Of a DNA stretch of 64,000 nucleotides, positions 14,686 to 17,209 are shown in pieces. Source of the DNA: Desulfovibrio sp. A2 (GTDB lineage: Bacteria; Desulfobacterota; Desulfovibrionia; Desulfovibrionales; Desulfovibrionaceae); NCBI RefSeq assembly GCF_000226255.1, contig NZ_AGFG01000008.1, positions 26,616 through 90,615 of the forward strand, written 5' to 3'. Both the position numbers and the translations under genes were made by a program. Below the pieces are notes generated by a model that did not search any database, had not been told where the DNA came from, and saw only the letters and a program-made list of their open reading frames with translations. Each line of letters begins with the position of its first letter. Within the stretch, counting starts at the first letter, position 1.

Positions 14686-15510
14686 TCAAGGCACGGGCGT
14701 GTCGGCGCGGGGGCAGTTGCGCTCCTCCGGGAACGATCCGGGCGGAAAGTACGCGGCATACGGGCGCACGATGCGTGCAAGGTCGCTGCCGCCCGGCACG
14801 CCGCCGTTGCAGCGCAGGTCGTCCAGCGTGGATTGCAGACGGGCCAGCAGCACATCGTCCGCCGACGGGTTGAAGGCCATGTACAGGTCGAATCGTTCCA
14901 GCACCATGGAGACGGTGTACGCGGTACTGTCGATGTCGCCCTGCTGCATCATGTAGAAGGTGGAGTGGATGTTGAACGCCAGCACGTCCACCCGTCCGGC
15001 GGTGAGCATGCGCACGGCGTCCGCCGGGGTGGTGGCGGAGTGCAGCGATTCCTGCGGCACGCCCTTTTCGAGCAGCAGCTGTTCCCCCACCGTGTTGCGC
15101 ACCGTGCCGATGCGCAGGCCGCGCAGGTCGCTCCACTGGCGGGGGGCCATCCTGCTTTCCTTGCGGACGATGGTGCCCACGGTCACCCGCATGATGGGCC
15201 CCACCCACTTGAACAATCCTTCGCGCTCCGGAGTGCGTGCGGTGCTGAACAGCAGGGCGTCGGGCGTTCCCTGGGCCTGGTGGAACGCCCTGGCCCAGGG
15301 CAGGACGCGGATGTCCCCTGGGTTCACGGGGGTGCCGGTACGCGCCAGCACGGTGGTGACGATGTCCACTCCCGGCCCGCGCGGCAGACCGTCCTGAAGG
15401 TAGTTGAAGGGTGGCAGGTTTTCGGTGAGCAGGGTGAAGGCCCGGGAAGGGAGCGGGCATGTGAGGAAAAGTATCCAGGCGGCAAGGCCCGCCAGCAGCG
15501 CGCGGGCCAT
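14686..15510 (-). CDS. Periplasmic amino-acid-type substrate-binding protein
   Basis: 274 aa from the ATG at 15510. A signal peptide is visible (MARALLAGLAAWILFLTCPL then PSRA|FTLL). The mature part fits the SBP family 3 / PBPb fold: TLLTENLPPFNYLQDG, LPWARAFHQAQGTPDALLFS, LRGLRIGTVRNTVGEQLL, DVLAFNIHSTFYM. Such proteins feed ABC uptake systems or act as sensors, but no permease or ATPase gene is adjacent. Upstream in-frame starts at 15606 and 15630 would add a 32-40 residue polar leader before the signal peptide and have no clear ribosome-binding site. Ligand unknown. Confidence 0.75.
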   Translation of the reverse strand: MARALLAGLAAWILFLTCPLPSRAFTLLTENLPPFNYLQDGLPRGPGVDIVTTVLARTGTPVNPGDIRVLPWARAFHQAQGTPDALLFSTARTPEREGLFKWVGPIMRVTVGTIVRKESRMAPRQWSDLRGLRIGTVRNTVGEQLLLEKGVPQESLHSATTPADAVRMLTAGRVDVLAFNIHSTFYMMQQGDIDSTAYTVSMVLERFDLYMAFNPSADDVLLARLQSTLDDLRCNGGVPGGSDLARIVRPYAAYFPPGSFPEERNCPRADTPVP

Positions 15511-15674
15511 GGCGGACGCCGGGGACGGGGCGGGCGTGCGTGGCGTTTGCCGCGCAGTGGCGTTGCAGCGGGACAAGACGGTGGTGGCGTGGGCGGTGTG
15601 TGACATACCGTCGACTGCCTGAGGAAACATGTTGTCAGGACCGGGTGCGGCTGCCGGACCTGGGCGGCGATGCG

Positions 15675-15706
15675 CCGAAAAAACAGCCGTATGTAAATGG
15701 CTGTTT
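15675..15706 (-). terminator. Leftward Rho-independent terminator
   Basis: AAACAGCC (15681-15688) and GGCTGTTT (15699-15706) form a hairpin followed on the minus strand by a T6 run. It would end the transcript of the small zinc-ribbon gene at 15897-16061. The rest of the 386 bases between that gene and the binding-protein gene shows nothing else clear. Confidence 0.75.
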
Positions 15707-15896
15707 ACATATGTCTAGCGGTGCTTGGGGGACAGGTCAATGCTGGATGCCCCTGCATACGGGTGGGGGGCAATAGGGAGCGGCTGGGGGATGCCACACC
15801 CGCCCGCCGGGGATGGCCGCAGAGGTGTCCGGCGGCCCGCCGCATGAGGTGGCGACGGGCCGCGTCCGTGTACCCTCCGGGCTGCACGCGGGCAAC

Positions 15897-16061
15897 CTAG
15901 TTCAGGCGGTTGATGTCGAGGGGGGCGCCGCAGCAGGGGCAGGTGTCCACCCGCTTGCCGCTGAAGCAGGTGCCGGCGAAGAACAGGGTGCGGAACTTGC
16001 GCTCGATGGAACTGTACAGAACCCAGAGCTGGTGGCCGCAGGTGCAGAAACGCTGTTGCAT
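15897..16061 (-). CDS. Small CxC...CPCC zinc-ribbon protein, 54 aa
   Basis: 54 aa from an ATG with AGGAG seven bases upstream. Two cysteine clusters, RFCTCGHQ at the start and DTCPCCGAPLDINRLN at the end, could bind one zinc ion; between them is an aromatic, basic stretch. An isolated cysteine also occurs mid-protein. No family recognised. The promoter region (16106-16123) overlaps an 18-bp operator identical to that in front of the neighbouring CI-type repressor, so this gene is probably repressed by it and released when that repressor is inactivated. A terminator follows at 15675-15706. Confidence 0.65.
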   Translation of the reverse strand: MQQRFCTCGHQLWVLYSSIERKFRTLFFAGTCFSGKRVDTCPCCGAPLDINRLN

Positions 16062-16105
16062 GACGGTCTCCTTGGCGGTGTTGTTGTGAACGCCGCCGCA
16101 CTGAA

Positions 16106-16123
16106 TGTTTATAAAAGTGAACA
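16106..16123. promoter_or_regulatory. Operator copy 2 (zinc-ribbon gene promoter)
   Basis: TGTTTATAAAAGTGAACA, an imperfect palindrome (TGTT.A...T.AACA). It contains TTTATAAA, usable as a -10 box (TATAAA) in the leftward direction, 45 bases upstream of the zinc-ribbon start. The exact reverse complement occurs at 16986-17003. Confidence 0.75.
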
Positions 16124-16142
16124 TGGCGGACAAAAAAAATAC

Positions 16143-16901
16143 CTACCCAATCTCGCGGCACAGCCAGACAACCCGGCCGATGACGCGGAACTGCTCCAGT
16201 TCGTCGCCGCGCACCCGGATGGGCGAGTACGCCGGGTTGTCGCTGACCAGGGCAAGGCCGTCTGGCGTGCGCATGATACGCTTGACCAGCACGGCGTCTT
16301 CCAGGCCCACGGCGTACACTTGGCCGAAGCGCATTTCTTCGGTGGAGCGGTCCACCAGCACGGTGTCGCCGTCGCGGATTTCCGGTTCCATGCTGTCGCC
16401 CACCACATCCATGAGCACCATGGCGGAAGGGGTGCCCTTGCGCGACAGCCAGGCATGCGCGAAGGGCTGGCCGCCCACGGGCATGGCCTGCACCTCGAAC
16501 GAGCCGCCCCCGGCGCTGAGCCGGGCGCGCACCTTGGGCACCATGTGCACGGCGGGGGGCAGATCGGCGAGGGGAGGCGCGGGCATGGACGGACGCAGCG
16601 AAGGCGTGCGCCCGGATTCTGTGGCCAGGCCACCGGCGGAACGGGCGGCGTTGCCGGCAGCGGAAACGGCCCCGGCAAGCGGGGCGGGGCGGGCCGAGCC
16701 ACGGCCGTATTCCAGCCAGTCTGGCGAGATGCCGTACACGCGCGACAGCCGCAGAATCCACTTCTGGGGAATGGCGTCGCGGTTCTTGGCCTGGGTGATG
16801 GCGCTGCGGTTCACCCCCAGAACGCGGGCAAGGGCCTGCTGGGTGGTGATGTCCGTGCCCTGCATGACCCGGGCGAAGAAGGTGTCGAAGGCGTCCGGCA
16901 T
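16143..16901 (-). CDS. CI-like repressor with S24 self-cleavage domain
   Basis: 252 aa. The N-terminal helix-turn-helix is of the phage CI-repressor type (residues ~1-65: TTQQALARVLGVNRSAITQA, then GISPDWLEYGRG), followed by an Ala/Pro-rich linker. The C-terminal S24 (LexA/CI) peptidase domain has the nucleophile in MDVVGDSMEPEIRDGDTVLVD and the Lys base in DAVLVKRIMRTPDG. Such repressors are inactivated by RecA-stimulated self-cleavage after DNA damage. Start at 16901 has AGGA seven bases upstream; an ATG at 16931 is possible. Identical inverted operators flank the gene: 16986-17003 overlaps its own probable -10 (autoregulation), and 16106-16123 lies before the zinc-ribbon gene. No other phage genes are near. 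Confidence 0.85.
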   Translation of the reverse strand: MPDAFDTFFARVMQGTDITTQQALARVLGVNRSAITQAKNRDAIPQKWILRLSRVYGISPDWLEYGRGSARPAPLAGAVSAAGNAARSAGGLATESGRTPSLRPSMPAPPLADLPPAVHMVPKVRARLSAGGGSFEVQAMPVGGQPFAHAWLSRKGTPSAMVLMDVVGDSMEPEIRDGDTVLVDRSTEEMRFGQVYAVGLEDAVLVKRIMRTPDGLALVSDNPAYSPIRVRGDELEQFRVIGRVVWLCREIG

Positions 16902-16985
16902 GGTGGTGTCCTGCTGGAGGTGGTGCGGCATCCGTCACGGTCGCCCGCTCTGGCCGTCCTGACCATGTTTGCGTTTCGGGCGTTG

Positions 16986-17003
16986 TGTTCACTTTTATAA
17001 ACA
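16986..17003. promoter_or_regulatory. Operator copy 1 (repressor promoter)
   Basis: TGTTCACTTTTATAAACA, the exact reverse complement of the copy at 16106. On the minus strand it covers a TATAAA -10 box with a TTGCAT -35 about 18 bases upstream. Transcription would start roughly 70-80 bases before the repressor ATG at 16901. Confidence 0.75.
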
Positions 17004-17116
17004 AGATTCCGTGCGCGATGCAAGCGGAAAAAACACGGCAGCGCGAGAATTCTGTTCTTGAGTGTTATTTCAGGTGGATAGGTGGGCGCGTGATGCTCCT
17101 TTTTGCCCAGCAACGC

Positions 17117-17138
17117 GAAAGGGGCCCCGGAGGGCCCC
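17117..17138 (-). terminator. Possible terminator after lysA
   Basis: Hairpin GGGGCCC / GGGCCCC with CGGA loop (17121-17138). On the minus strand it is followed only by TTTCG, so it is a weak but plausible end of the long leftward operon that finishes with lysA (stop at 17210). Confidence 0.5.
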
Positions 17139-17209
17139 CGATTGTCGTTCGATGTCGATGACGGCGTTGCGCTGATGGCGTTGCTTCGCGCCGTTGCGTA
17201 CGCTGCCGG

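Follow-up and report, generated by a model that had tools for sequence, protein, structure and literature searches.

The region described here lies within a window of 64,000 nucleotides, the whole stretch of DNA analysed, from contig NZ_AGFG01000008.1 of Desulfovibrio sp. A2. It contains a gene for an S24 repressor, a downstream gene for a small cysteine-rich protein on the same strand, and two copies of an 18-bp sequence that are referred to as operators 1 and 2 in view of their proposed function. The features, in window coordinates, are:

15897..16061, minus strand: zinc-ribbon protein gene, 54 aa, ATG start, stop included, encoding a CxC...CPxCG protein
16068..16073, minus strand: AAGGAG, probable ribosome-binding site of the zinc-ribbon gene, its GGAG unchanged in all seven rows of the genus alignment
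16106..16123, minus strand: operator 1, covering the probable -10 (TATAAA) of the zinc-ribbon gene, the motif also being found in relatives
16143..16901, minus strand: S24 repressor gene, 252 aa from the conserved start, both domains above cut-off
16281..16283, minus strand: predicted catalytic Lys217 codon, invariant in 124/124 aligned rows and aligning with the LexA lysine
16392..16394, minus strand: predicted catalytic Ser180 codon, invariant in 124/124 rows and aligning with the LexA serine
16509..16514, minus strand: predicted scissile Ala140–Gly141 codons, invariant in 124/124 rows
16986..17003, plus strand: operator 2, covering the probable -10 (TATAAA) of the repressor gene

The S24 repressor

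The longest ATG-initiated repressor frame reaches 16931 (262 aa), but the start that is conserved in the genus alignment is the ATG at 16901 (MPDAF...); residue numbers used here follow the 262-aa form. The protein joins an N-terminal helix-turn-helix domain of the phage CI family (PF07022, 38.5 bits, cut-off 22) to an S24 peptidase domain (PF00717, 83.8 bits, cut-off 23.3), and a search of PDB sequences matched its catalytic part to LexA and UmuD with E values of 1e-5 to 1e-3. A preliminary description of this DNA had pointed to a Ser/Lys pair suited to self-cleavage; that pair is present, accompanied by a scissile Ala–Gly, and all of these residues are invariant in an alignment that joins the window's own repressor to 123 of the 124 from modules (all but the fragment L032), 122 of the sequences being distinct. 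On these residues the repressor looks capable of cutting itself, as a prediction from sequence.

Among named records, the repressor is closest to proteins from Nitratidesulfovibrio and unclassified Desulfovibrio. The genome of the window has eight S24 matches, including a UmuD-like one, this repressor, three phage-type repressors and one further HTH–S24 protein. Also noted was L027, another HTH–S24 protein of the same genome, which carries an SAGGGS stretch resembling the cleavage region and sits on a very long tree branch.

Two operators in the window and in the genome

The 18-mer TGTTCACTTTTATAAACA occurs as two exact copies in the window, at 16106-16123 on the minus strand and 16986-17003 on the plus strand, one at the probable promoter of the 54-aa gene and the other at that of the repressor, just as the preliminary description had placed them. 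In 100 shuffles of the window with dinucleotides preserved there was no match to it at up to three mismatches, and at the same tolerance the whole genome (4,148,832 bases in 83 contigs) has it at these two places only, so a search for additional members of a regulon, which had been proposed as a check, yields no further copy. The copies had also been called inverted, which holds in that the plus-strand letters of operator 2 are the minus-strand letters of operator 1; the 18-mer is, however, an imperfect palindrome of the form TGTT-N10-AACA, and the inversion therefore amounts mainly to two unequal half-sites being swapped. More symmetrical versions occur in relatives, such as TGTTTATATAAATAAACA in a Desulfohalobiaceae record.

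Each operator contains TATAAA, plausible as a -10, in keeping with the earlier proposal that the sites overlie the likely -10 elements. The assignment of the -10s is nonetheless one that we infer, since a simple sigma-70 scan of 15650-17200 gave no promoter-like site. Both sites stand out by conservation in the genus alignment: all 18 columns of operator 2 are invariant across six rows, against 67 of 190 flanking columns (35%, a figure that takes in the conserved coding start), and 17 of the 18 columns of operator 1 are invariant across seven rows, against 34 of 119 flanking columns (29%).

Other palindromic or shared sites were seen in passing. A different palindrome, about TATGTAAATGGCTGTTTACATA, lies at 15691-15712, upstream of a minus-strand gene (14686-15630) whose product is periplasmic solute-binding protein-like by eye. 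Four congeners (L285, L286, L287 and L288) have a further common site, TGTTTATGTGAGTAAACA, in one of them with a mismatch, near positions 2539, 2468, 2519 and 1469 respectively; in two of the four it precedes a minus-strand membrane-protein-like ORF by about 230 bases, and it is not among the matches in the window's genome.

The zinc-ribbon gene and its pairing with the repressor

The small cysteine-rich gene of 54 codons reported earlier was borne out, the cysteines of its product being arranged as C6-x-C8 and C41-x2-C44, as in a C4 zinc ribbon. No Pfam or NCBIfam cut-off was reached by the protein and a comparison for the zinc-ribbon fold gave no match; its relatives have in common the pattern MQxRxCxCG...CPxCGxxLxIxxL, and CxC..CxxC is present in 128 of 129 matched stretches, the exception being an 8-residue fragment.

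A profile search of the order (Desulfovibrionales) found the zinc ribbon in 127 of 297 genomes and 28 of 55 genera, as 129 copies counted after removal of 11 duplicate loci. A relative of the repressor lies upstream on the same strand at 124 of these 129 places, at a distance of 48-602 bases (median 174), and the five copies with no repressor within 700 bases are L062, L076, L102, L227 and L237. Conversely, other Desulfovibrio-like records contain four repressor orthologs (L006, L008, L009 and L012) that have no zinc ribbon in the stretch examined; loss of the zinc-ribbon gene is suggested in these, because they nest among the module rows in the repressor tree described below. The best reading of this distribution is that the zinc ribbon is the usual co-regulated partner of the repressor.

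One of the unpaired copies, L102 in genome G230, is a second and divergent zinc ribbon in a genome that has the usual pair as well. Distant relatives of the zinc ribbon also occur in two other families of the phylum (L271-L276), none of them beside a repressor, and at three of these six loci a methionine sulfoxide reductase-like ORF (by eye) lies directly downstream.

Association with umuDC in relatives

At 10 of the 129 zinc-ribbon copies, umuD and/or umuC follows on the same strand, beginning 159-392 bases after the zinc-ribbon start. These loci (L053, L061, L062, L063, L064, L073, L074, L076, L079 and L168) belong to nine genomes of families f2, f3, f4 and f5; none is in the window's own family, f1, where umuD is located elsewhere in the genome. 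Two of the ten, L062 and L076, have no repressor, and there the zinc ribbon has a tie to umuDC independent of it. Its constancy beside the repressor, taken together with this separate tie, makes a co-regulator or a partner of Pol V the most likely role for the small protein.

A second kind of association is through shared sites. In G203 the sequence TGTTTANNTNAGATTGACA, at up to two mismatches, matches exactly twice, before umuDC and before the zinc ribbon, and its backward control matches nowhere. The same sequence is less selective in three other genomes: two of seven matches in G127 and two of six in G151 fall at umuDC (exact in each case) and at the zinc ribbon, with one and three backward-control matches respectively, and one of two in G099 falls at umuDC, with two in the control. 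For the three together this puts 5 of 15 matches at one or other of these places, while the backward control has 6 matches in all. A pattern of the type found in g8, applied to eight genomes at up to one mismatch, produced seven matches, of which five are umuD places already known and two lie elsewhere; none came from G160 or G129, and the backward control matched once.

The umuD promoters were also scored with a motif trained on the regions upstream of the zinc ribbon. With the genera grouped after the result had been seen, 21 of 25 promoters in g8, g13, g36 and g45 (10/11, 9/12, 1/1 and 1/1) contain a stretch whose score no more than 2 of 50 shuffles match; eleven other genera have such a stretch in 2 of 26 promoters, both in g51 and with low scores. 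In five g13 genomes (G099, G151, G171, G175 and G179) the top-scoring stretch before umuD differs from the operator seen by eye; in G099 and G151 the operator at umuDC was recovered by the pattern. A long two-part palindrome, TGTTTATGTTTTACAACATAATGTTGCACAGCATAAACA, was noted upstream of umuD at L140 (G244).

In the window's own genome the umuD promoter has no site (score -9.3, with 24 of 50 shuffles as high), and none was found for recA, either by eye in its upstream region or within three mismatches genome-wide, so that the link to DNA damage is here one of kinship only. The preliminary description had taken the locus for a stand-alone module with the small protein as its sole obvious output. 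For this genome that holds, since no other site lies within three mismatches; elsewhere the circuit would include the Pol V genes, and the module is probably a narrowed form of that wider circuit and not an isolated oddity.

That no damage gene is seen under a site in the window's genome also gives some room to the idea that the circuit is real but answers to a trigger other than RecA and DNA damage, for example redox state, heat or a partner protein, with the zinc ribbon sensing or relaying the signal. The LexA-like regulator IrvR is described, in the available text of one source, as departing from the rule of RecA dependence (PMC7101444), and a partner rich in cysteines might be responsive to metal or redox conditions. 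We consider such a trigger unlikely, given that the scissile Ala–Gly and the Ser–Lys dyad are kept without exception in all 124 rows and that the umuDC link recurs in other families and genera. A trigger through RecA is the reading carried forward below.

The operator motif across the order

The motif was derived by expectation-maximisation with a palindromic model and seeded starts from 127 distinct regions before the zinc ribbon, and reached a log-likelihood of 486 with an estimated 96% of the regions holding a site; six dinucleotide-shuffled sets, each given the best of the same six seeds, reached 72-93. When TGTT-Nd-AACA was counted with at most one mismatch, d = 10 was the commonest spacing both before the zinc ribbon (48/129, against 12.8 in shuffled sequence) and before the repressor (52/123, against 13.6). 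The spacings N4-N6, N9 and N11-N15 are raised too before the zinc ribbon, and less so before the repressor, which we attribute to drift and to half-sites that are repeated. Between genera the operator sequence drifts, and it has low scores before some zinc ribbons.

These additional spacings could also be taken to mean that the palindromes belong to another regulator, Rex-like or Crp/Fnr-like, with the repressor gene as just one of its targets, and the trained motif has what we take to be a resemblance to a Rex-type sequence. A Rex site has a spacing of N8 in this notation. N8 is not enriched, at 17/129 and 14/123 against 13.9 and 12.1 in shuffled sequence. Moreover, the sites are confined to the repressor and its neighbour in the window's genome, and the G203 pattern to the zinc ribbon and umuDC, a distribution that suits a local regulator. 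Control by an outside regulator is accordingly improbable, and binding by the S24 repressor itself is the reading we prefer.

Probable phage ancestry and relation to LexA

The earlier statement that there are no other phage genes nearby stood up to a second look, none of the ORFs between 10000 and 23000 being phage-like by eye. The repressor itself does have phage relatives, matching 408 phage records, and its best phage match is to Desulfovibrio phage ProddE (39.5% identity); the zinc ribbon matched neither phage records nor viral contigs. A tree of 61 proteins, which has no row for L122 or L022, separates the module repressors from LexA (100/100) and from a clade of 12 other repressors (99/99) that holds ProddE, viral contigs and the three phage-type repressors of the window's genome, although the module rows do not form one side of a branch (three label changes) and two long branches are unsure. 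A prophage remnant, that is a repressor and operators left behind by a lost phage with no host use beyond immunity to a relative, would account for the CI-family N-terminus and the phage matches, but is very unlikely given the lack of phage genes seen by eye beside the repressor, its placement apart from the ProddE clade, the absence of the zinc ribbon from the phage and viral sequences, and a pair kept in 124 places across an order. The better account is of a phage-type repressor in the service of its host.

Canonical LexA was considered as an identity for the repressor and ruled out: the protein scores 38.6 bits with TIGR00498, far below the cut-off of 110.95, its DNA-binding domain differs from that of LexA, and no site was seen at recA. 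Across the order TIGR00498 exceeds its cut-off in 11 of 297 genomes, the window's genome not among them, although a diverged LexA could be missed by this test, which passed the cut-off in only 6 of 14 control genomes (9 gave some signal). Six of the 11 positive genomes are among the 127 with the zinc ribbon.

A proposed SOS-like circuit

The explanation that we favour, to which we give a probability of roughly three in four, is that a phage-type CI/S24 repressor has been co-opted as a small SOS-like regulator, which would bind TGTT-N10-AACA, be cleaved when triggered by RecA, and control itself and the zinc ribbon and, in relatives, umuDC.

On this proposal an ancestor of the order would have captured the repressor, whose binding to palindromic TGTT-N10-AACA operators would, in the window's genus, cover the -10s of its own and the zinc-ribbon promoters and shut both. 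Following DNA damage, RecA filaments would cause the repressor to cut itself between Ala140 and Gly141 by means of Ser180 and Lys217, whereupon the zinc ribbon and new repressor would both be made, and self-repression would reset the switch once the damage had gone. In parts of the order the circuit would also govern umuDC, encoding Pol V, either in one gene run with the zinc ribbon or, in another layout, through an operator copy at a separate umuDC operon; this umuDC branch is no longer seen in the window's genome. For the zinc-ribbon protein the most likely role would be in damage tolerance, alongside Pol V or the repressor, perhaps that of a co-regulator. Because relatives of the pair adjoin, or share control sites with, the genes of an error-prone DNA polymerase, the module looks like a stand-in, assembled by the lineage itself, for some of the standard DNA-damage response of bacteria.

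A bolder version is tentative and somewhat less likely than not: the co-opted repressor and zinc ribbon, as a nearly constant pair, may have originally controlled Pol V in an order-wide, LexA-independent damage response of sulfate reducers, the zinc ribbon acting directly with UmuD2C or the repressor, as polymerase manager or co-repressor, and being the sole output left after umuDC made its exit in the window's genus.

Comparison with known systems

Damage regulators of the S24 type other than LexA are known already, namely HdiR, UmuDAb, those of the Bacteroidetes and FddR, as covered in the available text of PMC8565304 and PMC13148647. The account of FddR from Francisella, as available in PMC13148647, describes an S24 regulator traced to phage repressors that binds a palindrome in its own promoter and controls its own gene and an uncharacterised neighbour, with a paralog and divergent dinB in some species. 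The module shares with it a phage-type S24 regulator, a palindrome at the regulator's own probable promoter, a neighbouring gene and, in relatives of the window, a tie to a polymerase. By contrast, the targets of FddR are divergent and its motif is GTG-N11-CAC (PMC13148647), whereas the window's genes are co-directional with TGTT-N10-AACA, and FddR is described for one genus, whereas the module is order-wide, its partner a zinc ribbon and the polymerase linked to it in relatives UmuDC.

In Acinetobacter, which lacks LexA, the S24 repressor UmuDAb is reported to govern itself, umuDC and a small clade-specific protein (PMC7273328, PMC11332147, PMC4807011 and PMC3978071, in their available parts). 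The small protein DdrR acts as a co-repressor with UmuDAb according to the available part of PMC7273328, and by analogy could be a precedent for a small clade-specific partner such as the zinc ribbon. UmuDAb differs, as far as it is described there, in being a relative of UmuD with an added DNA-binding part, the window's repressor having a phage CI N-terminus. HdiR of Lactococcus and Streptococcus is likewise a phage-like S24 repressor, of itself and umuC-type genes, but belongs to another phylum and has no zinc-ribbon partner in the available description (PMC8565304). The same available text describes Bacteroidetes S24 regulators that have a CI-like N-terminus and an S24 domain with Ala–Gly and Ser–Lys and that take over SOS; these govern a conventional SOS set (PMC8565304), whereas the set recognised here consists of the zinc ribbon and the repressor, with umuDC added in some lineages. 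To canonical LexA the likeness is in the S24 domain, the dyad and a self-repression that we infer for the window's repressor, and the differences are the missed TIGR00498 cut-off, the other DNA-binding domain and the lack of a site at recA.

Within the available text of PMC8565304 and PMC13148647 on non-LexA S24 damage regulators there is no word beginning with 'Desulfo', and a search of the literature on Desulfovibrio LexA, SOS, umuDC and RecA found nothing on the repressor–zinc ribbon pair. The clade, the zinc-ribbon partner and the several circuit layouts side by side thus appear to be new, the clade and partner being undescribed in the literature searched.

Should the proposal be true, it would represent a further case in which a phage repressor was captured independently to run damage-induced mutagenesis, here in a lineage with few canonical LexA proteins as judged by the TIGR00498 test. 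It would also mean that network layouts coexist within the order, from a repressor with one gene, through a gene run with umuDC, to an operator spread to a distant umuDC, and the zinc ribbon would provide a named gene for testing the control of Pol V in these anaerobes.
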